NCBI GenBank assembly: GCA_001898385.1
Contig: MKTT01000086.1
Location: 1 to 64,000, forward strand
Source of the DNA: Planctomycetales bacterium 71-10
GTDB taxonomy: Bacteria > Planctomycetota > Planctomycetia > Isosphaerales > Isosphaeraceae
Direction: 5' to 3'
DNA: 64,000 nt
This document shows, piece after piece, positions 6,146-45,541 of this stretch; the first letter of the stretch is position 1; every line of letters begins with the position of its first letter. The notes below the pieces were generated by a model that was given only the letters and a program-made list of their open reading frames with translations, searched no databases and was not told where the DNA came from. A program made the position numbers and the translations under genes.

Positions 6146-7252
6146 TCACTTCCCCTTCGCCGCATCCTCGCGGGCGAGGCGATTCTGGAGGAGGGCCAGC
6201 ACGGCGGCCTCCTCGGGCTTGAGGTCGCCGATCGAGCGGGCCATCTCGCGGTCCGCCCTGGTGCGGAGGGCGTCGAGCATCGAGCCTTCGAGATAGGCGT
6301 CGACGACGGCGGGGTGGATGTAGCACTTGCGGCAGACGCTCGGCGTGTTGCCGAGCCGTCGGGCCACGCGCTCGACCGCCTGCACGACGTTGCGCTTGGC
6401 CTGCGCGTCGCTGTCGAACGCCTCGAACTCCTGCAACGCGATCGAGGCCAGGACCGTCCCGGCCCAGGTGCGGAAGTCCTTGGCGGTGAAGTCCTGCCCC
6501 GAGATCTCGCGGAGGTATTCGTTGACGTCGCCCGAGTCCAAATGCTGGGGGAGGCCCTCGTCGTCGATGTAGGTGAATAACTCCTGGCCGGGCAATTCCT
6601 GGCATCGCGCGACGACCCGGGCGAGCCGACGGTCCTTGATCGAGATCCGGTGCTTGACGCCGCTCTTGCCCTTGAACTGGAACAGGATGCTCGGGCCCTC
6701 GACGGCGACGTGCCGGTTCCGCATGGTCGTCAGGCCGAACGATTTATTGGTCCTGGCGTACTCCTCGTTGCCGACCCGGATCAGGGACAATTCCAGGAGC
6801 TGCACGACGGCCGCCAGCACCTTGCGACGCGGCATGCCCGCGAGCTTCAGGTCGGCGTCGGTCGCCTCGCGGATGCGCGGGAGGGCCGAGCCGAAGGCGG
6901 CCATGCGGCCGTACTTGGCGTCGTCGCGGACCTGACGCCAACGGGCGTGGTAGCGATACTGCTTCCGCCCCTTCTCGTCCCTCCCGGTCGCCTGGATGTG
7001 GCCCCGGTCGGACGGGCAGATCCAGACGTCGGTCCAGGCCGGCGGGATCGCCAGCGCCTTGATGCGGGACAGGGCGGCCTCGTCCCGGACCGGCCCGCCG
7101 TCCGCGTCGACGTACCGGAACGATTCGCCCGACCGTTTCCGACCGATCCCCGGCTTCTCGTCGCTCACATACCGGAGCCCCGCCCCCCTCGCGACGAGGG
7201 ACGGATCCTCGGGGCCGGTCGATCGCGGGGCGGTCATGGCATTCGCGCTCAT
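6146..7252 (-). CDS. DNA topoisomerase IB (poxvirus-type)
   Basis: 368 residues, the usual length for bacterial type IB enzymes. The N-terminal domain has RGAGLRYVSDEKPGI and the catalytic domain has RVGNEEYARTNKSFGLTT, the GKSGVKHRISI active-site block and AKDFRTWAGT. The nucleophilic tyrosine is in NTPSVCRKCYIHPAVV, at about residue 311. Such enzymes relax supercoils through a 3'-phosphotyrosyl intermediate without ATP. A second in-frame ATG (7237) is possible. The gene is convergent with the TAXI gene, with only 15 bp between the stops. Identification is secure; the in vivo role is not deducible. Confidence 0.95.
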   Translation of the reverse strand: MSANAMTAPRSTGPEDPSLVARGAGLRYVSDEKPGIGRKRSGESFRYVDADGGPVRDEAALSRIKALAIPPAWTDVWICPSDRGHIQATGRDEKGRKQYRYHARWRQVRDDAKYGRMAAFGSALPRIREATDADLKLAGMPRRKVLAAVVQLLELSLIRVGNEEYARTNKSFGLTTMRNRHVAVEGPSILFQFKGKSGVKHRISIKDRRLARVVARCQELPGQELFTYIDDEGLPQHLDSGDVNEYLREISGQDFTAKDFRTWAGTVLASIALQEFEAFDSDAQAKRNVVQAVERVARRLGNTPSVCRKCYIHPAVVDAYLEGSMLDALRTRADREMARSIGDLKPEEAAVLALLQNRLAREDAAKGK

Positions 7253-7409
7253 GGAGCGAGCTTACGGCAATCCCGGCGCCAGGCCCGGCGATTCGCAGGC
7301 CGAGCCGGGGCCCCGATCGGTTGCATGGGAGGCCGGCGTTTCTTTAGTGTAGATGCCTTGCAGCCGGGCACGCCGGCGGGCGGTTCGCGGTCGGGACGAT
7401 TGGGGTCGG

Positions 7410-7940
7410 ATGATTCGCTCGTATCTGGTCCTGGCGGTGACGGGGGCGTCCCTGCTCCTCGCGGCCTTCGCGACGGGGCTGGCGGCTTCCGCCGGCCCTC
7501 GATGGGGCGGGGTGCACCTGTTGACTTCGCTGGGGACGGTGATCGCCGTGCTGGGGATCCATTCGATCGTCTACACCTACTTCATGGCGACCGTGCGGTG
7601 GGCCAAGGAGGTCTCGCGGGCCTACGGGCTGCCGGACTGGCTCGTCGGGCAGGCCCGGCGGAACAAGGGGCGGGCGAGCCGATTCATCCTGGGCGGCGTG
7701 GCGACGGTCGCCGCGGCGGCCTGGCTCGGCGCGGCCGTCGACACCCGGGGCGGCGGCTACCGGCCCTGGCACCTGGCCGCCGCGTCGTTCGCCCTAGGGT
7801 TCAACGCCGTGGCGTTCCTCATCGAGTACGCCGGCGTCGTCGCGCATCACCGCCTGCTCGCCGAGCTCAAGGCCCAGGCCGACCTCGCCCGGTCGGAGGG
7901 CCGCGGGGCGTCGTCGGCCGCCTCGGGGGGCCCGGCCTGA
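7410..7940 (+). CDS. Small four-helix membrane protein of unknown function
   Basis: 176 residues from the ATG at 7410. Four hydrophobic segments are visible: SYLVLAVTGASLLLAAFATG; VHLLTSLGTVIAVLGIHSIV; a middle one after a basic loop (FILGGVATVAAAAWLG); and LAAASFALGFNAVAFLIEYA. The C-terminus is charged and cytoplasmic-looking. I do not recognise a family. It lies head to tail with the MFS gene 18 bp downstream, so the two may be co-transcribed. Confidence 0.65.
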   Translation: MIRSYLVLAVTGASLLLAAFATGLAASAGPRWGGVHLLTSLGTVIAVLGIHSIVYTYFMATVRWAKEVSRAYGLPDWLVGQARRNKGRASRFILGGVATVAAAAWLGAAVDTRGGGYRPWHLAAASFALGFNAVAFLIEYAGVVAHHRLLAELKAQADLARSEGRGASSAASGGPA

Positions 7941-7958
7941 GCGGGGGTTCGCTTGGAA

Positions 7959-9233
7959 ATGAATGAGGACATGAGCACGAACGTCGTCCTGGAAGAGCCG
8001 ATTTCGAAGCCCTCGCGGTCCCCCCTGGGGCTGGTGGTCCTGATCGTCCTGATCGACCTGCTGGGATTCTCGCTGGTGATGCCGCTGCTCGGGTTGCTGG
8101 GCGTGCGGTTCGGGTTCGACGGCTGGCAGTCGGGCCTCCTGTTCGCGGCTTTCCCGATCTGCCAACTCGTCGCGGGGCCGATCCTGGGGAGGCTGAGCGA
8201 TCGGCACGGACGCCGCCCGGTTCTGGTGTTGAGCCAGGCGGGGACCGCGCTCTCCTTCGTGATCCTGGGCCTGGCCCGCGACTTCCCGACGCTCCTCCTG
8301 GGGCGGATGCTCGACGGCTTCTCCGGCGGCAACATCATGGTGGCGCAGGCGTACGTCGCCGACGTGACGAAGCCGGAGGACCGCGCCCGCGGCATGGGCC
8401 TGATCGGCATGGCGTTCGGCCTGGGATTCGTCCTGGGGCCGCTCCTCGGCGGCCTGCTGTTGCAACTGCCGGTCCCTTCCGACTGGTCGCTGCGGATCCC
8501 GTTCCTGGCCGCGGCGGCGTTCTCCATCGTGGCGTTGATGCTCGTGATCGCCCGGCTCCCGGAGAGCCTCCGGCCCGGGGCCGAGCCGCAGACGAAGGCT
8601 CGCGTCGTGACGTGGCGGGGCCTGGTCGACGTCTTCCGCCTGGAAGGCGTGGGGGTCCTGGCGCTGCTCGCGTTCCTGTCGATCCTGGCGTGGGCCGCGT
8701 TGGAAGGGACGTTCGCGGTCTTCCTCCAGCGCCGGATGGGCTGGACCAAGGGAGGGGCGGCCTATGCGTTCGCGGCGGCGGGCCTCATCTCGGCGATCGT
8801 CCAGGGAGGGTTGATCCGCTCGCTGGTCCCTCGCTTCGGGGAGGTCCGGCTGATCCTGGCCGGCGGGCTCCTCGCCGGCGTCGGATTCGTGATCGCCGCC
8901 TCGCTCTCGGGGGCGAGCATCCTGCCGCTGGCGGCGGCGATCATCCTCGCCGCCTCGGGGTCCGGCCTGCTCACCCCGTCGATCACCGGCCTGATCTCGC
9001 AGATCACGCCCCCGAGCGAACAAGGGGCCGTGTTCGGGGCCTTGACCTCGATCCAGACGCTGGCCAGGATCGTCAGCTACCTGCTGGGGAACGTGCTGCT
9101 GTATCGCGTCTCGCCGTCGGCCCCCTACTGGTTCGCCGCGGTCGTGTACGGGCTGGTCCTGGCGCTCGGGATCGCCGCGGCCCGTCGCCTCGCCGACGCC
9201 CTCGGGAGATCTCGCAAGCCCTCGGGCGCATGA
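7959..9233 (+). CDS. MFS transporter, drug:H+ antiporter (TetA/DHA1-like)
   Basis: About 424 residues with 12 predicted membrane helices. Motif A (GRLSDRHGRRPVL) sits between helices 2 and 3 near residue 77. A second family feature is FLDGFSGGN-like RMLDGFSGGNIMVAQAYVAD with GLIGMAFGLGFVLGPLLGG, the motif C region of antiporters. These point to the DHA1/TetA branch that exports small molecules using the proton gradient. Starts at ATG 7959 or 7971 are both possible. Substrate cannot be inferred, and no adjacent regulator is seen. Confidence 0.88.
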   Translation: MNEDMSTNVVLEEPISKPSRSPLGLVVLIVLIDLLGFSLVMPLLGLLGVRFGFDGWQSGLLFAAFPICQLVAGPILGRLSDRHGRRPVLVLSQAGTALSFVILGLARDFPTLLLGRMLDGFSGGNIMVAQAYVADVTKPEDRARGMGLIGMAFGLGFVLGPLLGGLLLQLPVPSDWSLRIPFLAAAAFSIVALMLVIARLPESLRPGAEPQTKARVVTWRGLVDVFRLEGVGVLALLAFLSILAWAALEGTFAVFLQRRMGWTKGGAAYAFAAAGLISAIVQGGLIRSLVPRFGEVRLILAGGLLAGVGFVIAASLSGASILPLAAAIILAASGSGLLTPSITGLISQITPPSEQGAVFGALTSIQTLARIVSYLLGNVLLYRVSPSAPYWFAAVVYGLVLALGIAAARRLADALGRSRKPSGA

Positions 9234-13002: not shown

Positions 13003-14556
13003 TCAGGGCTCACGAATGAAGATGTACTCCATCGGGTCCACGAAGTCCGGGCGCACCGAGAAACGAAATTCGGCAGGGCGTCCGGTCCCGTCGATTCGGA
13101 AGGGGACGGGGCTGGTCTTGAAGAATGGATCGGCCCAGGCGGCTTCGAACAGGTCGCCGTCCCTGGGCGTCAAGACGGCACGGAGCCCGATGTTGCGTTC
13201 GACGGCCAATCTCAGCGTCCCATCGGCTAGCTCGATGCGGGCCTCGCCCAGGGCCCCGTTGCGATAGGTCCCGGCATATCGCGCCAGGTCCAGCGTCGGG
13301 CGCGGCGTGAAGGCGTCCTCGGGAGCTTTGGACGCAGACTCTTTCGACCGGGCCTCGCTCTCCTGACGCAGAAGCAGCAGTTCCCCGCTCCAGTCGCGAG
13401 CTTCGGCCTTTAAGAAGGCATCGACCACGCGGAAGGGGATGGCCCGATAGAGCTCTTGCTCGTCGAAATTCGTGAGGACGACGACGCCCAACTTCTCCTC
13501 GGGGACGAGGACGGTCAGCGAGAGCATGCCGTCCATCCCCCCGCCGTGGGAGAGGACCATGCGCCCGAGGTAGTCTTGCATGAACCAGCCCAGGCCGTAG
13601 GCGAAGAAGTGCGAGGATGGGAACAGCGACTTCTGCCGCATCGACGTCGGGCGCACCAGATTCTGTGGTGCCTGGGTCTCTTGGATTACGGCCGAGGGGA
13701 TGACGCGGGCGTCGCCGAGCATACCGTCGTTCAGTTGGGCTCTCATCCATTGCGACCAGTCGAGGACGCAAGAGTTGATCCCGCCCGCCGGCCCGCAATT
13801 GTCGAGGTTGCGATACGGGATGGCCGCGATCTTACCTTCGATGAGCGTGTGGGGCCTCGCGACGTCCGCCACCCCTTCGAGCGCCCGAACCGAGGTGCTG
13901 GAGCGGGTCATCGCCAGCGGATGAAAGAGCCGGCGCTCGACGAAGCTCGCCCACGTTTCGCCGGAGACCTTCGCGAGGAGTTCCCCCGCCGCGAGGAAGG
14001 TCAGGTTGCAATAGGCGTAGCGGTCGCGGAAGCCGAAGTCGGGCGGCAACTCCCTGACGCGTTCGAGCACCTCGGGGATCGATCGGTCCGAACCGTACCA
14101 GATCAGGTCGCCCTGCCAGGTCCCGAGCCCCACGCGATGGCAGAGGAGGTCGCGGATCGTCAGGGCTCGCGTCGCCGCCGGATCCTGGAGCTGGAAGGCC
14201 GGCAACTTCTCGCATACGGCGTCATCCCAGCCGAGCTTCTTCTCATCGACGAGGAGGCCCAGGGCGGTTGCGGTGAAAGCCTTGGAGTTCGAGGCCATCG
14301 CGAATCGCGTCTCGGGCGTGATGGGCTCGGGCTTGCCCGTCTCGCGGACGCCGAACCCTCGCGCGTAGACGACGGCGTCGCCCTTGACGACGGCGATCGC
14401 CAATCCCGGCACGCGCCATTCGCGCATGGCGTTTTCAATGTAATTATCCAGGCCCGCGAGCGCCTCCGGGGGAACTTGCTGGGCGGGGACCGTCGCCGCT
14501 ATCAACAGGGCGACGAATGTCACGCTGGTCGTCCGGATACGTCGCCGCCATCTCAT
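13003..14556 (-). CDS. Serine hydrolase, beta-lactamase/class C family
   Basis: About 517 residues from the ATG at 14556, which has GGGGA 8 nt upstream (an ATG five codons earlier is possible). A signal peptide (TSVTFVALLIAATVPAQ) precedes the beta-lactamase fold. The catalytic SxxK is in AMASNSKAFTA (Ser about 89, Lys about 92), the YxN is in RYAYCNLTF, and the third motif is LSHGGGMDGM. The C-terminal 100 residues (ARYAGTYRNGALGEARIEL) resemble the DUF3471-like lipocalin domain often attached to these proteins. Likely an esterase or D-aminopeptidase rather than a drug-resistance enzyme. Confidence 0.88.
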   Translation of the reverse strand: MRWRRRIRTTSVTFVALLIAATVPAQQVPPEALAGLDNYIENAMREWRVPGLAIAVVKGDAVVYARGFGVRETGKPEPITPETRFAMASNSKAFTATALGLLVDEKKLGWDDAVCEKLPAFQLQDPAATRALTIRDLLCHRVGLGTWQGDLIWYGSDRSIPEVLERVRELPPDFGFRDRYAYCNLTFLAAGELLAKVSGETWASFVERRLFHPLAMTRSSTSVRALEGVADVARPHTLIEGKIAAIPYRNLDNCGPAGGINSCVLDWSQWMRAQLNDGMLGDARVIPSAVIQETQAPQNLVRPTSMRQKSLFPSSHFFAYGLGWFMQDYLGRMVLSHGGGMDGMLSLTVLVPEEKLGVVVLTNFDEQELYRAIPFRVVDAFLKAEARDWSGELLLLRQESEARSKESASKAPEDAFTPRPTLDLARYAGTYRNGALGEARIELADGTLRLAVERNIGLRAVLTPRDGDLFEAAWADPFFKTSPVPFRIDGTGRPAEFRFSVRPDFVDPMEYIFIREP

Positions 14557-14710: not shown

Positions 14711-15709
14711 TCAGGCCGATCGCCTGGATGTGAGGGCGGGGTGAGCGACGGCGGCCGATCGTGTCGCCTCGTACGCTGCTCCGCGTCCGAGGACGTCCTG
14801 GAGCTTGGAGAGAGCGGATCGTTCGATCGCCCTTAGCTGGTGGATCGGCATGCCGATCTCGGCGGAGAGTTCTCGGAACGTCCTGCATCCGTCGGATTTG
14901 GGGATAGGCGCGGCGACGACGCCGCCCTTGCGTCCCGGCTTCCCACGACCGACGGCCCGGGTCCCGACCAGGGCCTCCTCTAGTCGGTAGCGCCGCCGGA
15001 GGACCCAGGATTGGATCAATGTCAACTTGCGCAGGGCCGCGTGAAGGCGCTCCATCGATTCTGCGATTTCGAGGGGCTCCTGCGGGGGGGCCATACGTGC
15101 CAGCGCCGCATCGTGGGACGGCTCGCTGATGGAGCCCATGGACCGCGAGCGGAGTTCGCCCTGGATGTTGCGGAGGATCTTAAGCTTCCTCCCTTCGACG
15201 CCCATCTGCTCGAACACTTCTTCGAATTCCGGCTCCGTCCGTTCGATCGAGCCGCCAGTCGCCTGGCTCGCGGCCATCATCTCCTCGCGAGCCTTCTCGA
15301 ATCGGCGGCGAAGGAGGACCAGATAATAAGGGTAGCGAATGGTGGTGGACTGCTCTGCCACAACTCTTCGGATGCGGTACCGGATCCAGCAGGCGGCGTA
15401 ATTGACGAAACGCGTCCCGTGGGCTTCGGGATCGAAGTCGCTGGCCGCCCGGAGGAGCCCCAGGTTCCCTTCTTGGATCAGATCGTTGAGGTCGATGACT
15501 CGATTGCGCCCCCGGAACGCCGAGGCGATGTTCCGAACCAGCGGAAGATTGGCGAGGACGAGTTCCTCGCGGGCTGAAGGATCGCCGGCCTTGATCCGGA
15601 TCGCGAGTTGGAGTTCGCGTTCGGCGGAGAGCGGGTGCGAGCAGCCGGCCGACGCTCGCCTCTCCAGGGGGACGGGGCTGGAAGTCACGGACTCGATCGC
15701 GTCGATCAT
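14711..15709 (-). CDS. RNA polymerase sigma-70 family factor
   Basis: 332 residues from the ATG at 15709, which has GGAGAA 7-8 nt upstream. Region 2 is complete: LVLANLPLVRNIASAF, DLIQEGNLGLLRAASDFDP, RFVNYAACWIRYRIRRVV (the -10 recognition part). Region 4 starts at LTLIQSWVLRRRYRLEE and ends with an HTH (FRELSAEIGMPIHQLRAIERSAL). A basic insert of about 25 residues (AVGRGKPGRKGG and following) separates the two parts. Region 1.1 is absent, so it is an alternative group 2/3-type sigma. It is the last gene of the minus-strand block holding the phage-like genes and may direct transcription of that block or be a neighbouring host gene. Confidence 0.88.
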   Translation of the reverse strand: MIDAIESVTSSPVPLERRASAGCSHPLSAERELQLAIRIKAGDPSAREELVLANLPLVRNIASAFRGRNRVIDLNDLIQEGNLGLLRAASDFDPEAHGTRFVNYAACWIRYRIRRVVAEQSTTIRYPYYLVLLRRRFEKAREEMMAASQATGGSIERTEPEFEEVFEQMGVEGRKLKILRNIQGELRSRSMGSISEPSHDAALARMAPPQEPLEIAESMERLHAALRKLTLIQSWVLRRRYRLEEALVGTRAVGRGKPGRKGGVVAAPIPKSDGCRTFRELSAEIGMPIHQLRAIERSALSKLQDVLGRGAAYEATRSAAVAHPALTSRRSA

Positions 15710-15747
15710 GGCCAATTCTCCGGGGTTTGGGGAGGGTCGTCTCGGCT

Positions 15748-16185
15748 TCAATCCCGAGGATCGGAGGGAGACCAGATCACTCGTAGCCGAGGTCGGGCGC
15801 ATTCCCTCGCCGGCACCTGACTCCCATCCCGGGCCACGAGCTGAAGTCGCCAGGAGTCGCCTCCGACGGCATCGATGGCCTCCTTCGCGGTCGCGAAGGC
15901 CACGCTGCTGGGCACCCCGCCGACGCTCGTCGCCGATCGAACGTACCAGCGGCCCGCCCGATGTCCCGCGTCGAACTGCGATCGATACATCGGCGTGTAG
16001 ACGACGACGTCCTCGCCGGAGGGACGATCGTGCAGGCGGAAGGCCGCCATCGCCCGACGATGAGAGACGTGGGCCCGCGGGAGGGGAGGGGAATCGATCG
16101 GGGCGATCCGAAGCATGGCGAGGTCGCGCGAGGAGGAGGCGATCGATGGGCGTCGGCGATGGGTGAACGGTCGGGCGGGGGACAT
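15748..16185 (-). CDS. Hypothetical protein, 145 residues
   Basis: The start at 16185 has GGGAG about 6 nt upstream. The first 50 residues are basic and low in structure; the C-terminal part (VVVYTPMYRSQFDAGHRAG, RWYVRSATSVGGVP and VAFATAKEAIDAVGGDSW) looks like a small folded domain. No family recognised. It ends 38 bp before the sigma-factor start and may be co-transcribed with it. Confidence 0.5.
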   Translation of the reverse strand: MSPARPFTHRRRPSIASSSRDLAMLRIAPIDSPPLPRAHVSHRRAMAAFRLHDRPSGEDVVVYTPMYRSQFDAGHRAGRWYVRSATSVGGVPSSVAFATAKEAIDAVGGDSWRLQLVARDGSQVPARECARPRLRVIWSPSDPRD

Positions 16186-24622: not shown

Positions 24623-25417
24623 TCAGCCGTCGACCCGGCCGCGGAACGGCCTGGGACGCGAGCCGATCGGGGGCGGGGCGGCGAAACGCTCGACGACCCG
24701 TTCCAATCGGTCCGCCACCTGCGACAGACGTCCTTCGATCCGATCGTAGTCGTTCCCATACTGGGAGCCGCCGCTCGCTCCGTCGGAATCCTCCGCCGCA
24801 GCCGTTAGCGTCAGCGGGGCGGCCTGCGATGGAGTAACCTGTCGAGCCGGGCGAATGGGACCGACCATCGGCCATTGACCGCCCGGGGCGGAAGTGGAAC
24901 TCGTCGCCGCGGCCTCAGAGCCCCAGTCGCTCTGGATGAGTGGCGACTTCGATAGAAACTCGCTCTCGATCCGTTCGACGTCTTCGGAGAGGGACATCGC
25001 GATGGGCTCTCGCGCCGTCACAAGGAACTTCCCAAGTTTCCCCGAGACCTCCAGGCTCGAGGAGGGGGATCGATCGATCCGAGGGCCGGGGGTGTCGACG
25101 CGGCTCGATGTGAGAGGGGCGAGCCCGGGGCCCTTCGCTCGCTCCGCGGCCGTGGGGGCGGCGACGATAACCGGCTCGACGAGCGCGGAAGCCAACTCGG
25201 GCGTTTGATGGAGCACCGAGGTCCTGGTCTCGTCACCCTGGGGGAGCGGCCCGATCAAGGCGGCCGTCGGGCGGTCGGGGCTCGCCGAGCCTTCCTCCCC
25301 CGCCGGAGCATCGGCTCCGATCGGCGGCGTCGCCAGGATTTCATCGAGCTTGTCGAGCGGCCACGGGACGCCCGACTCCGAGGTTTCTTGGGAGATCAGG
25401 AATTCGTCGAGGTCCAT
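24623..25417 (-). CDS. Putative short tape-measure or tail protein
   Basis: 264 residues from ATG 25417. Mostly low-complexity and Ala/Pro/Ser-rich, with a helical C-terminal stretch (YDRIEGRLSQVADRLERVVE) able to form a coiled coil. It is the gene directly after the tail-chaperone pair, the position normally taken by the tape-measure protein that sets tail length. 264 residues would give only a very short tail, so the call is tentative. Confidence 0.4.
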   Translation of the reverse strand: MDLDEFLISQETSESGVPWPLDKLDEILATPPIGADAPAGEEGSASPDRPTAALIGPLPQGDETRTSVLHQTPELASALVEPVIVAAPTAAERAKGPGLAPLTSSRVDTPGPRIDRSPSSSLEVSGKLGKFLVTAREPIAMSLSEDVERIESEFLSKSPLIQSDWGSEAAATSSTSAPGGQWPMVGPIRPARQVTPSQAAPLTLTAAAEDSDGASGGSQYGNDYDRIEGRLSQVADRLERVVERFAAPPPIGSRPRPFRGRVDG

Positions 25418-25436: not shown

Positions 25437-25673
25437 TCAAAAGAGGGCTTCGAGCGCGGCTTCCTGCGCCCTGGTTTCATGTCCGTCCACCCATCGCGAA
25501 GGGGGGACGGCACGGCCCAGTGCCACCAGCATTTCCGAGACGCCGATGGCGTCCTCCCAGGGCAGATCCTGGGCGACCCCGTTCGCGATCAGGGTGCAGC
25601 GGAGCCATCGGCTGAAGGTTTTGGGACCCGGCCCGTCATCGCCCGATTGATCGCCTGCCAACGCTCGCGGCAT
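25437..25673 (-). CDS. -1 frame extension of the tail assembly chaperone (gpT-like)
   Basis: An open frame in the -1 phase relative to the 137-residue chaperone gene, overlapping its end by 85 bp. It has an ATG at 25673, but the only AGGA is directly against that ATG, too close to serve as a ribosome binding site. A CCCAAAA heptamer at 25619-25625 lies in the overlap, in the correct phase (C CCA AAA). Slippage would add 60 residues starting TFSRWLRCTLIANGVAQ and give a 188-residue fusion from ATG 26002. This is the classic G/GT layout of siphophage tail chaperones. Confidence 0.6.
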   Translation of the reverse strand: MPRALAGDQSGDDGPGPKTFSRWLRCTLIANGVAQDLPWEDAIGVSEMLVALGRAVPPSRWVDGHETRAQEAALEALF

Positions 25674-26002
25674 TCCTGGTCTTCGGCGTCGATGATGAGC
25701 AGGTCGCGGAGGTCACGATCCGACAGGTCGTAGTTCCGGAGCAAAAGGAGGGCGGCCATGCGGAACTGGATGGTCAGGCGGGCCGGCGTATCTTCGAGGT
25801 CGCAATCGGATAATTCATCCATCAGCGCCTCGAATTCGGCACCGAAGCTGGGGCCCCCCCCCACTGCAATCCGGCCGTCTTCGCCACGGATGGGGAACAG
25901 CCGGAGCGTTGGGATCGGGAGCGACCATCTGCCGCCATCCCCGAGGGTCACCTCCGGCCCCGCTGAGAACCCAGGCCGGCGGAGCGAACGTTCGTCAAGC
26001 AT
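25589..26002 (-). CDS. Tail assembly chaperone (gpG-like)
   Basis: 137 residues from ATG 26002, which overlaps the end of the preceding gene by 8 bp. The middle and end are helical and acidic (LTIQFRMAALLLLRNYDLSD and DQECRERWQAINRAM), as in gpG-type chaperones that coat the tape-measure protein. The frame stops nine codons after the slippery site, leaving a short tail, while the -1 frame continues for 60 codons. Sequence similarity to a named family is not visible; the assignment rests on position and frameshift geometry. Confidence 0.6.
   Translation of the reverse strand: MLDERSLRRPGFSAGPEVTLGDGGRWSLPIPTLRLFPIRGEDGRIAVGGGPSFGAEFEALMDELSDCDLEDTPARLTIQFRMAALLLLRNYDLSDRDLRDLLIIDAEDQECRERWQAINRAMTGRVPKPSADGSAAP
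25619..25625 (-). promoter_or_regulatory. Candidate -1 ribosomal frameshift site CCCAAAA
   Basis: On the minus strand the zero frame reads GTC CCA AAA CCT. Slippage by one base gives CCC AAA ACC TTC, which is the reading frame continuing to 25437. The heptamer obeys the X XXY YYZ rule. Downstream, AGCC-GAT-GGCT is a possible small hairpin about 5 nt away, and GACGCC-ATC-GGCGTC forms a six-base-pair hairpin further on. Confidence 0.55.
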
Positions 26003-26360
26003 GGGGGGGCTCCTCGGCGAGCGTCCCTCGCTCGGAACCATCGGGAGACGCTGCCCAGGCGTATCGGGGGCGACCCTCGCGAGGATGACCGATCGGGAAG
26101 GAGATCGTGTCGCGTGGGTCCTTCGTGATGAAGAGGCGGCCTCCCGGTTGGCGTCGGATGTAGGCCCTATCCCCACGCGAGCGGTCGACCCCCAGCAGGG
26201 GCTCCGCGAGGCGAAGGATCGAGTCGATCCGGTCCAACTGCGTGCCGCCGGTCTTCCACGACTCGGGGACGATCAGCGCGTCGAATGGCATGGCTTCCAT
26301 GGGTGTCGCGGGCTCGTCTTGCCTCTTGGTCGCCGGAATCTCGGGGCGGGCGGCGATCAA
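25995..26360 (-). CDS. Small phage structural-region protein, 121 residues
   Basis: Start codon overlaps the stop of the tail-tube gene and its own end overlaps the start of the chaperone gene, so the three are translationally coupled. LDRIDSILRLAEPLLGVDR is helical and DRAYIRRQPGGRLFIT is beta. No family recognised. Position between tail tube and chaperone suggests a tail component. Confidence 0.5.
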   Translation of the reverse strand: MIAARPEIPATKRQDEPATPMEAMPFDALIVPESWKTGGTQLDRIDSILRLAEPLLGVDRSRGDRAYIRRQPGGRLFITKDPRDTISFPIGHPREGRPRYAWAASPDGSERGTLAEEPPHA

Positions 26361-26773
26361 GCCCTGGTGAAACTGAGCGGGTTGGTGGTTCCGTCGGACG
26401 AGTAGGCCATGAGGCTAAGTGTCGCCGTACCGAACTCGCCGTGGGCTCCGGACGTCTCGGCGTTCTCGGCCACCGCATTCGCGAGGACGTAGAGGATGTC
26501 GCCGCCGACCTCGCCCTTGGCGTCCTTGTGGATCGCGCTGAAGGTGCCGGTGGCGCCCGGTGCGATCGCCATGAGCGCCGCGGCGTCGCCGCTGGTGACG
26601 GTGGCTTTGGGCTTGCTCATCGTGTTGACGATCACCGTGGGGAAGTGATCGCCGTCTGCGGCATAGGCGGTGAGCGAGCCGCCCTGGGTGAAGCTCACCT
26701 GGGTCACCCGAGAGATGGGGGTCGAATCGAACGAGACGGCCGTCCAGTTCGATTGAAGCTTGGTCGCGGCCAT
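26357..26773 (-). CDS. Major tail (tube) protein
   Basis: 138 residues, beta-rich. The order MAATKLQSNWTAVSFDSTPI, ISRVTQVSFTQGGSLTAYAA, ATVTSGDAAALMAIAPGATG and GHGEFG-like SGAHGEFGTATLSLMAYSSD fits a small tail-tube fold in which subunits stack as rings. It follows the tail-terminator gene and precedes the chaperone pair, as in siphophage tail modules. Confidence 0.7.
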   Translation of the reverse strand: MAATKLQSNWTAVSFDSTPISRVTQVSFTQGGSLTAYAADGDHFPTVIVNTMSKPKATVTSGDAAALMAIAPGATGTFSAIHKDAKGEVGGDILYVLANAVAENAETSGAHGEFGTATLSLMAYSSDGTTNPLSFTRA

Positions 26774-27345: not shown

Positions 27346-30300
27346 TCATCCGAATCGAGGCCGGAATCGGGAGATCACCAGTCGGCCCGGCTTGGCGAAC
27401 GAGATCGCCGGGGTGCCCGTGCCCGGTTCGGGATCGGGCTGATTCCCGGCTTGCGCGGCCACCCAGCGTCTCTGGTGGTCCAGCCAGGCCTGCATCCGGA
27501 CCGACTCGCAGTAGACGTCGCCGGTCTTGGTCAGGTCCTCCGGGGCGGCGTACCGGTAGCGGCGGTTGTCCACGCCGCCGTCTCGGCCGTCGCCGTAGCC
27601 CGCCTTCTGGGCCGGCCCCCGCAGCAGCCCCCAGAGATAGAGGCTGTCGTCGTAGTCGGTGTACGGCGACGTCGAGGCGATCTCGTACTGCATGTAGAGG
27701 TCGACCCCCCCGATCGACCGCATCGCGCCGTAGTAGTCGCGCTCGGTGAAGTAGAAGTTCGGGTTGTAGGGGATGTCGCGCCGCCGCCGCCCGAGCGGGT
27801 CCGAGAAGCCGGGCGTGCCCGGCAGGACGATCGCCTCGAGCCCCCCCTCGTAGCAGAATTTCAACGGCCGCCGGCCCGTGGCCGCCTCGTGCGAGGCGAG
27901 CATCCGGTCCATCGACGCCATCATCTGGCGGTACTGCAGGATGCTCCCGTCGTAGTAGGTCAGGAACGTGTAGAGGTCGCACGCCTGGTCGTCGTCGACC
28001 GCGGTGAACGCGGCACCGCAGGCCGCGGTCTTGGGCGTGATGATGTAGGGGGCGATGGCCGCGGCGTCGGGCTCGACGCCCAGGCGGCGACAGTCGGCCA
28101 GGATGTCGACCCCCGTCTGGGAGCAGACGACGTGGACGAGCTCGCCCTGCCGCCCAACCTCGGCGAAGCACGCCCGGGCGACCTCGAAGGCGGCCCGGGA
28201 TCGCAGGATGTACAGCTCTCTGTGATTGGCCAGGCCGACCGCATGGGACACGATCTCGTAGACCTGGGTGTTGGGGAATCGCCAGTTCCAGATCTCGTTG
28301 CCCAGTTCGAAGATCACCTTGCGGCCCGCGGGGAGGTGATCGCGGACCTGCCTGGCCGCCTCGTAGACGGCCGCGTCGGTGGACCGCCCGGGGACGCACA
28401 GCCAATGCCACGCCAGAGGGGCCGTGGCCGTCTGCCGGGCCGTCTCGGCGTACGGGAAGACGGCGTAGGGGCTGACGAACTCCTTCGTGCCCGCGTCAGG
28501 CGCGTCGAACGGCTGGAGGACGGCCGGGGTCCCGGACCCCCCCAGGCCCAGCCCGTCGTCGCCGACGAACACCAGCGCCCGGTCGATCGCCGTCGGCAGG
28601 ATGGCGTTCTTCGCGTTGTACAGCCGGTTGTAGCCCCGCTTCGTCCCGTCGGGGCCCTGCAGGAGGACGCCGGAGGACCGCGTCCTCGCCGTCGCGCCGG
28701 CCGGATATGCGGCCGCGCCCGCCGGCCGCGACTTGACGGTGATCTTCCCGGCGGCGCGGTCGACGGCGGCCACGACCAGGACCTCGGAGCCGATGGCGAG
28801 GTTGATGTTCGTCGCGATGAAGTCCCAGTCGGACTCCGCCGCGGGGGTCGCGTAGACGTCCAGGGCCGTCGCGGCCAGGGGGGCCGTCAGCGTGAGCGTC
28901 CGGCGCGCGGCGATGTTCGCGTCGTCGGTGCCGCCCCAGTCCGAGTAGCCGCCGTTCGCCAGGTTCCGGCCGAACGTGAGCGGGGTCGAGAGGTCCTGGT
29001 CGAAGACGGCCTCGTAGCGGTGGGTCGCCGGGTCGACGGGGATGTATTGGCTCGCTTGCGTGATCGGGATGCGGTAGCCGACGACGATCGGGCCCGCGGC
29101 GTGCGTCGCGGTCGGCGTGTTGCGCGACCCCCGCTCCACCCGGTACTCGTCGCCCTCGCGGGGGACCCCGACCACCCGCATGATCTCGCCGCCGTCGAAC
29201 AGGAGTTGACCCAGCATGACGGGCATGCGACGCCCGTCCGCGATCGCGATCGTCTCGACCGTCCCCGGGGGCGGGGCGGTCGCGATCGCCGCGGCCAGCG
29301 TCGCCGTGTACGTCTCGGAGGCCGGCCAGGGGGTCGGCGTGTAGAAGTAGGGCGAAGCGGCGGGGTCGAACGGCCCGACCGAGGCGAAGTGGAGCCTGTC
29401 GACGTACCCCGGGTTCGCATAGTGCGGCGCCCCCGGCTTGGCCATCTGCTCCGGCTCGGCGACGTCGAAGCCCTGGGCCGGCGTCCCGTCCATGTGCCGG
29501 AAGCCCCCGCACCCGGGCGACAGGAAGCCCTCCATCGCCTCGTCGAGCGCCAGGTCGTCGCGGGGCGGGAGCGTCACAGGGCCGGGCTTCGTCGGCTCCG
29601 GCCACGAGCCGGGCTGGTAGGCCACGAAGTCGGCGTAGTGCAGGTTGGGGGCGTCCGGGCAGGTCATCGTCACGTAAAGGTTGCCGTAGCGGGCCCGCCG
29701 GCGGGCCGTGATCGCCGCCCCGGCCGCGTGGGCCGCGGCGACGGTGCCGTTCCAGCCCCGCGTGCAGCCCGCGCACGTCCGGGCGACGGCGTCGTACGAC
29801 CCGACCAGGATCTGCTCGCCGTCGACGACCAGGTAGCTCTCGTTGAGCGAGCCGACGATCGGCTCGACGAGCCGGATCGTCGTCGCCGTCGCGTCGACCG
29901 CCTCGCGGAGCGTGTAAGCCGTCGTCGCGCCGAACCGGACGTCGTAGACCCGGACCTTGCCCCGGCCCTCCGCGTCGCCGTCGTTGCGATAATCCCGCAC
30001 CTCCTTGACGACCGAGCCGACGCCGTCCCCGCCCACGACCATGGTGACGGGGTTCGCGTGGTCGTAGTCGGACCAGCCGATGGCCCAGAGGCCCTCCTTG
30101 CCGGCGATCCCCTCCGGATCCACGCGGTTGTACCCGCCCGACTGCGCGAGGATGGCGTTGACGATCGGCCCCTTGAACGTCCCGTCGGGCCAGTATTTGG
30201 CGTTCATGCCCATGCGGAAGTTGAGAGCCCGGTTCCGATTCATGACGACGGGCGTATATTCGGTCGCCGAGGTGATCGCGGCGTTCGTCCCCACGCGGGC

Positions 30301-31404
30301 CGGGGGCGCGCCGGGCCACAGCCCGTCGGAGATCGGCATCCCCGCGAAGTTGTCGACGGCGAGGCCGAAGATCGCGGGGGCGAACCCGATCTGCGGGGAG
30401 ATCCAGCCGGCCGGCGCGTCGAGGAGCACCGCCTGGCCGGGCGATACGGAGACCCCGGCCGGCATCGGGAAGAAGAGGGCGTCCGCCGTGGGCTGGACGT
30501 AGGCCCCCGCGGAGGCCGTCGTCGGCAGGGCGATCGGCGGGCCGCCGTCGATCCGGATCGACGGAGCCGCGGCCGTCGCGTCGCCCTGCGGCGCGACGCG
30601 GGCCCGCCCCTCGCCGTCCGTCAGGATGACCGTGACCGTCTTCCCCGCGGAGCCGACGTAGGCCCGCTCCACGGCCAGGGCCCCCTTGCAGGCCATCGGC
30701 TCCGAGTAGCGGACGACGTCGCCCGAAGTCGCCCGGGTCGGCTCCGGGATGCCGTAGTTGGGGTCGCCGCCCCACGACACCCCGGGCTCGTTCGCGCGGA
30801 CGTCGGCCCCGACGGCCCCCTCCAGCGAGTGGTACATGGCCAGGACGCCCGGCGTGGCGGCGGCCGCGGCGAAGACGGCCGGGGCCGCGTCGGCGTCGCC
30901 GGCCAGGGCCGACACGTCGGCGTCGGTCGCGGCGTAGCCGTCGAGGAAGAACGCCCGCTGGATCGTGAAGTCGGAGTCGCTCCCGCCGTAGCCCAGCCAG
31001 CTGATGGTCCCCAGCGGGCCGGAGAGGTCCGCGGCCCACGGGACCTTGGCCCCGTTGACGGCCACGAACCGCCGGGACGCGTCGTCCTTGTCGTAGACCA
31101 GGGCCAGGTGGTAGACGCCCCCGACGGCCGCCCCCGCCCGGGAGTGCGTCCGGGTCGTCCCCGCCGCCGACATGCACTGGGCGTTGAACGTGTACGTCGA
31201 CCCGCCCGCCGGCCCGATCGCCGTGAACCGGCACTGGCCCCGGACGAACAGCGTCTGCATGCCGCTCGTCGGCAGCGAGTTCAGCCGCACGTAGGCCGAC
31301 ATCGTGACCCGGGCGCCGATGAACGGGATGTTGAACGTCTTCGCGTTGATCTTGCCCGAATTCTTGAACGTTACGGCCAATGGGGCCTCCTGGATGAACC
31401 GCAA
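27346..31404 (-). CDS. Giant tail-associated protein with LamG-like and glycosidase-like domains
   Basis: 1352 residues, the largest gene of the phage-like region. Residues about 10-200 resemble a LamG/concanavalin-type jelly roll (VTMSAYVRLNSLPTSGMQTL, VYHLALVYDKDDASRRFVAV). The centre (about 220-950) is beta-rich with VVDGEQILVGSYD and VERGSRNTPTATHAAGP. The C-terminal 350 residues look like a TIM-barrel glycosidase: KVIFELGNEIWNWRFPN, with the Asn-Glu pair near residue 1038, and PLKFCYEGGLEAIV with a second Glu near 1186, the spacing expected of acid/base and nucleophile. A host-surface glycan is the likely target, as in phage depolymerases. No signal peptide. Confidence 0.7.
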   Translation of the reverse strand: MRFIQEAPLAVTFKNSGKINAKTFNIPFIGARVTMSAYVRLNSLPTSGMQTLFVRGQCRFTAIGPAGGSTYTFNAQCMSAAGTTRTHSRAGAAVGGVYHLALVYDKDDASRRFVAVNGAKVPWAADLSGPLGTISWLGYGGSDSDFTIQRAFFLDGYAATDADVSALAGDADAAPAVFAAAAATPGVLAMYHSLEGAVGADVRANEPGVSWGGDPNYGIPEPTRATSGDVVRYSEPMACKGALAVERAYVGSAGKTVTVILTDGEGRARVAPQGDATAAAPSIRIDGGPPIALPTTASAGAYVQPTADALFFPMPAGVSVSPGQAVLLDAPAGWISPQIGFAPAIFGLAVDNFAGMPISDGLWPGAPPARVGTNAAITSATEYTPVVMNRNRALNFRMGMNAKYWPDGTFKGPIVNAILAQSGGYNRVDPEGIAGKEGLWAIGWSDYDHANPVTMVVGGDGVGSVVKEVRDYRNDGDAEGRGKVRVYDVRFGATTAYTLREAVDATATTIRLVEPIVGSLNESYLVVDGEQILVGSYDAVARTCAGCTRGWNGTVAAAHAAGAAITARRRARYGNLYVTMTCPDAPNLHYADFVAYQPGSWPEPTKPGPVTLPPRDDLALDEAMEGFLSPGCGGFRHMDGTPAQGFDVAEPEQMAKPGAPHYANPGYVDRLHFASVGPFDPAASPYFYTPTPWPASETYTATLAAAIATAPPPGTVETIAIADGRRMPVMLGQLLFDGGEIMRVVGVPREGDEYRVERGSRNTPTATHAAGPIVVGYRIPITQASQYIPVDPATHRYEAVFDQDLSTPLTFGRNLANGGYSDWGGTDDANIAARRTLTLTAPLAATALDVYATPAAESDWDFIATNINLAIGSEVLVVAAVDRAAGKITVKSRPAGAAAYPAGATARTRSSGVLLQGPDGTKRGYNRLYNAKNAILPTAIDRALVFVGDDGLGLGGSGTPAVLQPFDAPDAGTKEFVSPYAVFPYAETARQTATAPLAWHWLCVPGRSTDAAVYEAARQVRDHLPAGRKVIFELGNEIWNWRFPNTQVYEIVSHAVGLANHRELYILRSRAAFEVARACFAEVGRQGELVHVVCSQTGVDILADCRRLGVEPDAAAIAPYIITPKTAACGAAFTAVDDDQACDLYTFLTYYDGSILQYRQMMASMDRMLASHEAATGRRPLKFCYEGGLEAIVLPGTPGFSDPLGRRRRDIPYNPNFYFTERDYYGAMRSIGGVDLYMQYEIASTSPYTDYDDSLYLWGLLRGPAQKAGYGDGRDGGVDNRRYRYAAPEDLTKTGDVYCESVRMQAWLDHQRRWVAAQAGNQPDPEPGTGTPAISFAKPGRLVISRFRPRFG

Positions 31405-31463
31405 GAGGGGGGAGCCGGGTGGGGTGGGTACGGCCGGGAGGCGGCCTCGTCCCTCCGCACCAC

Positions 31464-33359
31464 TCAGGCGACAGAGGCCGCTACGGACGCCGAGAGACCA
31501 TCGACCTGCGATGGCGGGGTGCTGTCGGCCGTGAAATGAACGGTCGAGACGTTGCCCTCTTCACCGTAGGTGTTGCAAGCCCGGACGACCGCGGCGTACC
31601 GCCGCCCGTCCACTAGGCCGTCGATCTCGGTCGCGAAGGCGTTGCCGCGCGAGGTCGCCGCGGGGACGATGATGGGAGAGGAAAAATCGATATTGGAATC
31701 GTGCGATATGTAAACGTGAAACATGGTCGCCATGTTCGAATCCTGTCGGCTGGCGTCCGTCCACTCGAGACGAACCCGTCCGCGACCCAGGTCGATCGCG
31801 CGGAGGCCGATCGGTGCTCGTGGGACATGGGTCACATCTCGCCCCGCGTGGTCGAGATTCAAGGAGGCCGACGCATCGAGATTCTCTTCTTGAAGACCCC
31901 ACGCCGGATCGTAGGCCCGTACGCCGAAGCGGAAGGAGGAGCCGACGGCCAGCGGTTCGCTCGTCCACTCCAGGCCTGAGGTTTCCGCGATCGGCGAGTT
32001 GTAGTCGATCGGGCCTCCAAGGCCGGCGTTGGAGTAGATCTTGTAGATCAGGCCGAGACCGGGGCTGGGGATTCGACAGGTGCCGCCGGCTCCGAGCCCG
32101 CCGTTCGAGACCGGGACGCAGGCCAGGTTCTCGCGCGCGGCGCCTCCGAATCCGGTGCCGTTCGTCGCCCCCGGGCCTGCCCGGTGGGCGACGCCTACCC
32201 GCGCCGAGGATCCGAAACGCCATCCCGGCGAGGCTTCGATGTCGACGCCGATCCGATGCAAAGCCGCGGGGGCCGCTGCCAGGATGGCGAGGGCGTTATG
32301 AGTTCCATCCAGGTGCGGCATGACGACGCCGCCGGTCGACCATGGCGCGATTGCCGGTTCGCTCGCCGTTCGCTCGGATTCCGCCGTGCCGCCGATGGCG
32401 CAAGCGACGTAGCTCTCGAGCGAGATTCCGACGCCGGCGATTCCGAGCCCAGCCATGTGCGCCGCGGCACCGTAAGCATCGGCGCGGAGATGCCGAGTCA
32501 CGGTAACCGTACCGCCGAGTCCGATCGCCGCGACGCCGGAAATGCGACCGTCGACCTGATTCGAACTGATGGCCGAACCGCCGACGATCAGCCCTCCCGT
32601 GACCACACCTGATAGGTCGGAGCCGCCGACCTTCCCCGAGGAAGCGACGCCGAGCCAACCTCGGAAGCCGAGAGCGAAGTCGCCCCGGCGGGGGCCGACA
32701 TCGCCGACCACCCTGCCTCTCAGCCAATATTTGAAGGATCGGCCCGGGGAATCCACCGAGTGCGCGCCGAAGCCGCCGATCGACGACCCGCCGGAGCCCG
32801 CTCGAGAATGGGACTGCATGACGGTCGAACTGGGGCCCGTCCCTAAGCCCCCCGAGACGGCTTCGACTTTATCGGAGGCGACCTGCGGCAACCCTCCCAG
32901 CGACCAGGCCCATTCCGACGTATGTTCGACCCTGAACGATGCGTCGGCGGAGGTCGTGGCTTCGACGCCCGCCTCGCAGGCCACCTCGATCGACGTGGAT
33001 GGGGAGCAGAAGCCGGCCGTCGACCAGCCACCCCCCGAGCCATGGTTCCTGGAGGTCCAGGCATCGGCGACGGCCAGGATTTCAAGGGTGGTTACGGCGT
33101 TCGTGGCGATTGCCGTGCTCGGGGGGGCCGATCCGCCGGAGGTCGTCTGTTCGCGAAGATCCGGGGAAGCGTTGACCGCGAGCAGGCTCGATCCTCCGGC
33201 CCGGAGGCCGCCGGACCCCGCTACGGACTGGTCGGAGGCCACGCGGACCACAGGCGCGACGAACGAGCCCCGAAAGCCCTGAGGCTTCGAGTTCGAGGAT
33301 CGGGAGGCCGTCTCGACCGATACGCCGCGGTACCAATGTTCGAAGGATCGTGGCGGCAT
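31464..33359 (-). CDS. Large Fn3-containing tail or fibre protein
   Basis: 631 residues. The start (SFEHWYRGVSVETASRSS) and a second copy near residue 218 (SFKYWLRGRVVGDVG) show an internal repeat, each followed by a Gly/Ser/Ala-rich beta region. The C-terminal 200 residues have two Fn3-like domains (YKIYSNAGLGGPIDYNSPI, SFRFGVRAYDPAWGLQEENL, and RVRLEWTDASRQDSNMATMF). Probably a structural appendage of the particle. No catalytic motif. Confidence 0.6.
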   Translation of the reverse strand: MPPRSFEHWYRGVSVETASRSSNSKPQGFRGSFVAPVVRVASDQSVAGSGGLRAGGSSLLAVNASPDLREQTTSGGSAPPSTAIATNAVTTLEILAVADAWTSRNHGSGGGWSTAGFCSPSTSIEVACEAGVEATTSADASFRVEHTSEWAWSLGGLPQVASDKVEAVSGGLGTGPSSTVMQSHSRAGSGGSSIGGFGAHSVDSPGRSFKYWLRGRVVGDVGPRRGDFALGFRGWLGVASSGKVGGSDLSGVVTGGLIVGGSAISSNQVDGRISGVAAIGLGGTVTVTRHLRADAYGAAAHMAGLGIAGVGISLESYVACAIGGTAESERTASEPAIAPWSTGGVVMPHLDGTHNALAILAAAPAALHRIGVDIEASPGWRFGSSARVGVAHRAGPGATNGTGFGGAARENLACVPVSNGGLGAGGTCRIPSPGLGLIYKIYSNAGLGGPIDYNSPIAETSGLEWTSEPLAVGSSFRFGVRAYDPAWGLQEENLDASASLNLDHAGRDVTHVPRAPIGLRAIDLGRGRVRLEWTDASRQDSNMATMFHVYISHDSNIDFSSPIIVPAATSRGNAFATEIDGLVDGRRYAAVVRACNTYGEEGNVSTVHFTADSTPPSQVDGLSASVAASVA

Positions 33360-44148: not shown

Positions 44149-44607
44149 TCAATCACCGGACGCGAGGCCGGCGGCGAACTCGCGCCACAGGGCTGCGAGC
44201 GATGCCCGGTCGGAGATCGAGGTTTCGGAGGCGGGCTTCCCTTCGGGGACGACGGCGGAGAAGTAGGGGGCGACCTTCTGGTCGAAGAGCGAAGTCCGCC
44301 CGGCCTTCCACGCCTTCTCCACCACGCCTAGCGCCTCCGCGATCCCCCGGCCGGACTCCAGGGCCTCGGCCCCGTCCAGCCACGCGGTGGCGTAAGCGGA
44401 GGCCAGGCCCCTGGGATAGCCCCGGCCGATCGCTCGGATGCTCGGGCCGGATGAATCGGCCGGCAACGAGGTGCGAGGAGGTGCCAGGATGCTGACCCCC
44501 CACGCGCTGACCGAGGCGACCAGGACCGTCGGCAGCCACCTCGCGACACCCCGGACCGACGCCGAGATGAACGGGATCGCTCTCACGCGGAATCCCGAGT
44601 GCGACAT
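44149..44607 (-). CDS. Anchored protein of unknown function, 152 residues
   Basis: A hydrophobic N-terminal segment (WLPTVLVASVSAWGVSILAP) after a basic start acts as a signal anchor; the rest is helical (AYATAWLDGAEALESGRGIA, ISDRASLAALWREFAAG). GAGGA-type SD is about 10 nt upstream. Overlaps the previous gene by 25 bp. Could be a lysis accessory. Confidence 0.5.
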   Translation of the reverse strand: MSHSGFRVRAIPFISASVRGVARWLPTVLVASVSAWGVSILAPPRTSLPADSSGPSIRAIGRGYPRGLASAYATAWLDGAEALESGRGIAEALGVVEKAWKAGRTSLFDQKVAPYFSAVVPEGKPASETSISDRASLAALWREFAAGLASGD

Positions 44608-45218
44608 GTCTTCTCATCCTCTTTGCATTGGCGGGAATCGCGAGGCGACTTGGAGCCCTCGACGGCCGTCGAGCCCGACTTGAAGATGCGAGACCGTCGC
44701 TGACGTCGGGTCTCGGCCTCGACCGGGGCGACGGGAGATTTCGTTTCGTTCGGCCGCCGCGCCCGGCGAGAATTCGACTCGGGCCGGGGATCTGTGGCGG
44801 GATCTCGGGCGAGGGCGGGATGGCCGTCCATCCCCGAGGCCGAGCAGACCATGCAGCAGAGGAGCGACCCTTGCCGAATCGGCCCGTGGTGCGGGCATGG
44901 CGAGGTCGGTGTGAACGGCCCTACGGGGAAGAGGGGGACCAACTCCAGCCACCACGGCGTCCGCGACGCCGCCGAGGGCGACTCGACCGCCATGCCGTCA
45001 TCGGTCGGGATGGCCGAATCATCAAGTGAGTCCCGCGTTCGGGAATCTCGCTCCTTGCGGGCACGGGACAGCGCCCTCCGCAGGAGCTGGACGCTCACGC
45101 CCGATTCTTCGGCCAGTTCGACGGTCGGCCTGCCGGCCTCGTGGAGCCGCAGCCACTCCTCGTCGCGGAGGGCCCGGATCTCGCCCATGGCTCGCACTCG
45201 ATCGGTGGGTCCCATCAT
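44583..45218 (-). CDS. HTH protein with Cys/His-rich motif at the head of the phage-like operon
   Basis: 211 residues. AGGAGG lies 5 nt upstream of ATG 45218, fixing the start. The first 60 residues contain an HTH (EWLRLHEAGRPTVELAEES, GVSVQLLRRALSRAR). The centre carries CPHHGPIRQGSLLCCMVCSA, a compact metal-binding knuckle (two His, four Cys) that I associate with planctomycete proteins. The C-terminus is basic and disordered. As first gene of the block it may regulate it or help recognise DNA for packaging. Confidence 0.6.
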   Translation of the reverse strand: MMGPTDRVRAMGEIRALRDEEWLRLHEAGRPTVELAEESGVSVQLLRRALSRARKERDSRTRDSLDDSAIPTDDGMAVESPSAASRTPWWLELVPLFPVGPFTPTSPCPHHGPIRQGSLLCCMVCSASGMDGHPALARDPATDPRPESNSRRARRPNETKSPVAPVEAETRRQRRSRIFKSGSTAVEGSKSPRDSRQCKEDEKTCRTRDSA

Positions 45219-45541
45219 GACGCCTCCTGAGCCCGCCCGGCCCTCGGTCGACGTCCACACCGAGTAGTGCTATACAAAACGAGGCTGGGAAATGAGAACG
45301 GCTTTTTCGTGACCTTGGATTTTGCGCAAAGTCTTGGAAGGCAAGGCTTAAAAATTTCCGTCGAAAATCGCCGAGGGAAACTTGCTCGCCGTGATGGCCC
45401 CTGTGGCGCACTGTCTATGTGGAGGCGAGGTGACCTCCCGCTCTATCGGGATACACCTCGCGAGGACGAATCGAGTCGAACACACGCCCGCCCGGCCCTC
45501 GCTCGACGTCGAATCGTGATCAGGGACGCTCTTCGAGGCCG
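45219..45541. other. AT-richer intergenic region upstream of the phage-like operon
   Basis: This 323-bp gap between uvrA and the first phage-like gene contains visibly AT-rich DNA (about 45264-45370) in an otherwise GC-rich window, as well as a perfect 10-bp palindrome, CCTCGCGAGG, at 45456-45465. No convincing gene: a plus-strand open frame here has no family features. It is the best place for the control region of the element. Confidence 0.5.
45269..45298 (-). promoter_or_regulatory. Candidate promoter for the phage-like operon
   Basis: On the minus strand, TTCTCA (45293-45298) and TATAGC (45269-45274) are separated by 18 bp, each matching four of six bases of the sigma-70 consensus, 50 bp before ATG 45218. 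Weak; the operon may instead use the alternative sigma factor encoded at its end. Confidence 0.25.

Follow-up and report, generated by a model that had tools for sequence, protein, structure and literature searches.

Two overlapping reading frames among the phage-like tail genes of a planctomycete raise the question of whether one message yields a tail assembly chaperone in two lengths, by a −1 slip of the ribosome, or whether the second frame is a gene of its own or the remnant of one. We addressed this question by examining the window, i.e., the whole 64-kb stretch of DNA that was analyzed, and by comparing it with homologous loci in other genomes.

Two reading frames meet at a slippery heptamer

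The zero-frame open reading frame (ORF), on the minus strand at 25589-26002, starts with an ATG at 26002 and ends with a TGA at 25591-25589. It encodes a 137-aa protein, which we assign to the short form of a tail assembly chaperone on the basis of its translation, its homologues, and a fold match. Near its 3′ end, the heptamer CCCAAAA (25625-25619) is read in the phase C CCA AAA and is followed by nine sense codons and the TGA. The −1 frame runs on for 60 codons beyond the heptamer to a stop at 25439-25437 (25437-25619 on the minus strand, stop included) and would encode the C-terminal domain of a long form. The original prediction had given this phase, this nine-codon zero-frame tail, and this 60-codon run, and the sequence bears out all three figures. 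The site is no mere chance occurrence: CCCAAAA is found once in the 64 kb when both strands are considered, and the one in-phase copy among ~20,000 codon positions of predicted genes is the chaperone site itself. Both codons are in the minority in the genes of the surrounding cluster, CCA accounting for 4% of Pro codons and AAA for 14% of Lys codons, so that conservation of the heptamer cannot be put down to codon usage.

We consider it very probable that this locus encodes a tail assembly chaperone that is made in two lengths from one message via a −1 slip. We infer that slippage takes place in the cell with an efficiency such that the majority of ribosomes stop at 25591 and release the 137-aa short form. 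On C CCA AAA, a minority, presumably held up by a stem that begins 6 nt further on, would shift back by one base and go on to make a long form of 188 aa, in which a C-terminal domain of 60 residues follows the shift point at residue 128 (VPK/TFSR).

The heptamer and the −1 frame are conserved in relatives

Comparison of homologous loci, which the original prediction had put forward as a check, shows that close and distant relatives alike have retained the heptamer and the −1 frame. Relatives of the chaperone were detected in 26 of the 99 genomes searched, and CCCAAAA is in phase in 19 loci (the window locus included) from 17 genomes and eight genera, with identities to the window protein down to ~30%. 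In these 19 loci, the −1 extension spans 50-76 codons, and the zero-frame stop is located 1-9 codons past the heptamer. Among the named Isosphaeraceae relatives are Aquisphaera insulae, Singulisphaera acidiphila, Tautonia sociabilis, and Paludisphaera soli, the latter belonging to the same genus group as the window, whose host is Paludisphaera-like. Within the host family (Isosphaeraceae), the distribution covers 32 genomes out of 45, while a phylum-wide sample yielded 3 of 392 genomes, two from the host family and the third with a weak match.

Of the three frames in which the 60-codon extension can be read, only the −1 frame shows purifying selection: across the seven closest loci, pN/pS past the zero-frame stop is 0.28 there, and 1.46 and 2.77 in the two others. 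These findings bear on the view that the −1 frame is a decaying remnant, produced when a mutation or an assembly error split a once-continuous gene. Although relatives with both domains in one frame do exist, the same split and the same heptamer are seen in 19 loci from independently assembled genomes, and both parts of the split gene are under purifying selection. Conservation of the split thus refutes this view as a general explanation, and we assign it a negligible probability.

Another explanation is that there are two separate overlapping genes, with the 78-aa −1 ORF translated from its own start, perhaps coupled to the upstream gene. There is indeed a possible start, ATG 25673, with an AGGA just before it, and other loci have start codons scattered in the −1 frame. 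However, the AGGA directly touches the ATG, with zero spacer, which agrees with the original statement that this ATG has no spaced ribosome binding site. Moreover, the start is not conserved: in four homologues (L002, L005, L011, and L019), there is no ATG, GTG, or TTG in the −1 frame between the upstream stop and the heptamer. A separate start therefore cannot be the general mechanism, and we rejected a start of its own for the 78-aa ORF. Neither of the two outcomes that the original prediction had named as refuting it was thus obtained. Separate genes would also leave no reason for keeping the heptamer at minority codons, and one polypeptide holds both domains in five related loci. Altogether, we find two separate genes highly improbable. 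Several genera have retained the slip site even though its codons are in the minority, which indicates a continuing need for both chaperone lengths; the tail genes of the inherited cluster (see below) are therefore probably still in use.

A stem is conserved downstream of the heptamer

The original prediction did not include a 9-bp stem, GCCGATGGC/GCCATCGGC, which begins 6 nt past the heptamer and encloses small hairpins in an 80-nt fold. Its 5′ arm, GCCGATGGC (25612-25604, minus strand), pairs with its 3′ arm, GCCATCGGC (25550-25542, minus strand). All nine pairs are present in seven of seven close loci, one of them via a G-U pair. The energies in these seven loci range from about −36 to −45 kcal/mol, with z-scores of −1.8 to −4.2 relative to a synonymous-codon null that keeps the −1 protein and local codon usage and ignores the short zero-frame overlap. 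When 45-48 nt directly past the heptamer were folded in the window's clade, no signal for a local hairpin was seen, the stem emerging only at 80 nt. The window's clade yields no evidence of covariation, since the two arms show almost no variation there. Most of the distant loci also have stems; in these, the same region finds a closer pairing partner (mean z −3.1), and at least two registers occur. Pair counting on distant relatives gives a weak signal because the register of the stem differs among clades.

The predicted fold and the neighboring genes point to a tail assembly chaperone

As for the zero-frame product, its structural model (pLDDT 88) is predicted to fold like a tail assembly chaperone. 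The model matches, over nearly its full length, a BFVD entry named tail assembly chaperone (E 3.9e-10, TM 0.73/0.76), this strong viral match being to one predicted structure with an automatically assigned name. A Foldseek search of the PDB with the same model returned no match at E 0.001. Alignment to PDB structures is weak: more than 80 residues can be aligned with the HK97 chaperone (2ob9, Z 3.3) and with YqbN (3klu, Z 3.0), but at ~10% identity. Searches of PHROGs and Pfam with both frames and the neighboring tail genes found nothing significant for the chaperone, tube, or tape-measure candidates, while tblastn of the fusion against phage records and a search of viral contigs gave no match.

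The neighborhood is that of a tail module. A tail tube (major tail) protein gene (26357-26773, minus strand) lies close upstream of the chaperone gene; the AlphaFold2 model of its product (pLDDT 72) has structural matches to tail tube proteins, with a Foldseek probability of 1.00 and a VIA Z of up to 11.0, among which is the tube protein of RcGTA (6tba). Congeners have tube proteins with 83-87% identity to this one and keep the order of the neighboring tail-region genes. Between the two genes is one small ORF from the ORF list (25995-26360, minus strand; counterpart in L031 at 14157-14462), whose start is uncertain and which overlaps the start of the chaperone gene. Past the chaperone gene, at the place that the tape measure takes in lambda-like phages, lies a gene (24623-25417, minus strand) that is a candidate for that role by its position. 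Its 264-aa product is of low complexity and poorly conserved, has no hydrophobic segment, and shows no recognizable features. In some relatives this position is occupied by genes for 512-712 aa, likewise without family matches. Farther upstream, the region 27346-31539 contains two very long antisense ORFs, of 1352 aa on the minus strand and 1362 aa on the plus strand, and the G+C content by codon position favors the minus strand.

The layout resembles that of lambda G/GT

In lambda, gpG and the rarer gpGT are made in a 30:1 ratio, the G part binding the tape measure and the T part the tube subunit (PMC5009743). By analogy, the tape-measure protein would be coated by the N-terminal part of the chaperone encoded here, and the long form, as the less abundant product, would use its C-terminal domain to bring in subunits of the tail tube. 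The two systems share a short zero-frame product with a −1 slip near its 3′ end, a C-terminal domain without a conserved start of its own, and a tail tube gene close upstream. In contrast to gpG/gpGT, the window protein has no detectable sequence similarity to known families, its heptamer is CCCAAAA, its extension is shorter, a small extra gene is inserted between the tube and chaperone genes, and the tape-measure gene is only a candidate by position. The window heptamer differs by its last base only from C_CCA_AAG, which is highly shift-prone in E. coli (PMC5009743), and 6-7% frameshifting has been measured in tests of phage tail assembly chaperone genes (PMC3711429). Site conservation, the chaperone fold, and the upstream tube gene all support the lambda G/GT-like layout originally proposed. 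The mechanism is thus of an already known kind, the lambda G/GT type, in the setting of an inherited phage-like cluster in a planctomycete.

One-frame fusions and another candidate slip site

Five loci, in G023, G029, G006, G020, and G025, lack the heptamer and encode both domains in one frame. These natural fusions support the existence of a single polypeptide carrying both domains. In all but G025, the fused gene is directly followed by a short N-domain paralogue, a layout that suggests that a duplicated short gene replaced frameshifting in these four. Fused and short genes are adjacent at L039 (15251-16347), L077 (10202-11247), L115 (~7250-8220), and L116 (~6744-7990). Such loci, with separate long and short genes, make it possible to ask directly for what purpose a tail is assembled with two chaperone lengths and how the long/short ratio is fixed.

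At another locus, in G021, G040, and G009, the −1 extension is kept with TCTTTTC in place of the heptamer and a stem downstream. TCTTTTC, which is located at the frame change (L046 12103, L078 14274, and L079 18087, in gene-strand coordinates), is possibly a second kind of slip site. There are also solo N-domain relatives with neither extension nor heptamer (L044 10996-11451, L038 11603-12166, L040, and L045), which are found near exopolysaccharide- and exosortase-like genes and might be co-opted copies. Finally, heptamer-bearing chaperone genes adjoin ParA-like genes on small contigs or plasmids: L036 is on a 15.5-kb contig (G001:C9), where the tape-measure position after the chaperone gene is taken by a gene for 712 aa, and L033/L034 are on the S. 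acidiphila plasmid pSINAC02 (G031:C3).

The chaperone gene belongs to a cluster that looks vertically inherited

The chaperone gene is part of a head-tail gene cluster (17651-45260, minus strand, borders approximate) encoding a terminase, a portal, a scaffold, an SU10-type capsid protein, and tail proteins. The genome has 24 matches to tyrosine integrase (PF00589), none of which is on the window's contig (C86). The cluster adjoins uvrA in three congeners (G001, G002, and G005), and some of its flanking genes are common to Aquisphaera genomes (G028 and G037). A relative of the portal is present in 34 of 99 genomes, all from the host family, and portal identity tracks UvrA identity (Spearman 0.80 over 24 genomes, related genomes being non-independent points). 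From these comparisons, inheritance within the genus looks vertical, at a conserved chromosomal locus. The cluster thus has the look of a vertically transmitted element akin to gene transfer agents, and not of an ordinary prophage.

A further reading is that the frameshift works but that the protein no longer builds tails here, the cluster being partly decayed or repurposed. The shortness and poor conservation of the 264-aa product in the tape-measure position would fit, as would the solo N-domain paralogues found away from phage genes and the family genomes with portal and capsid genes in which no chaperone was found in the following 20 kb. However, the tube protein and tail-region gene order are well kept in congeners, as described above, and a tape measure of this length would be in keeping with a tail that is itself short. 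We therefore regard loss of the tail-building role as unlikely, and favor a frameshifted chaperone that still serves tail assembly. Purifying selection and conserved gene order uphold the original claim of a maintained tail module, with a reservation concerning the short, poorly conserved gene in the tape-measure position. Two loci, L065 (G017) and L066 (G042), retain the portal and capsid genes, but housekeeping genes come next and no chaperone gene was found in the vicinity, a picture that resembles loss of the tail module.

The window cluster shares with gene transfer agents of the RcGTA type a compact head-tail cluster, the absence of a tyrosine integrase from the contig, a chromosomal locus common to different species, and a tube protein whose model is matched by the RcGTA tube (6tba). 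It differs in its host phylum and its SU10-type capsid protein. In Zavarzinella, another planctomycete, a predicted prophage has a terminase near those of RcGTA-like agents (PMC7947584). We found no description of a gene-transfer-agent-like element in Isosphaeraceae in the literature searched, of which coverage was partial. If the cluster makes particles, it would represent a gene-transfer-agent-like system in Planctomycetota. We give even chances to a scenario in which Isosphaeraceae have inherited a gene-transfer-agent-like head-tail cluster vertically, some lineages still depending on frameshifting for the chaperone and sister lineages having exchanged recoding for gene duplication, with the long form encoded by a fused gene and the short form by a duplicated one.

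A protein with a sigma-70 region 2 is encoded next to the cluster (14711-15802), and a protein with a weak helix-turn-helix match is encoded at its other end (44583-45260); both are possible regulators. In P. soli, a TAG interrupts the portal copy on the uvrA side (G004:C1:2771-4363), and the search for a close homologue of the chaperone gave none; the same species has a second, divergent element, on contig C114, in which the heptamer is kept.
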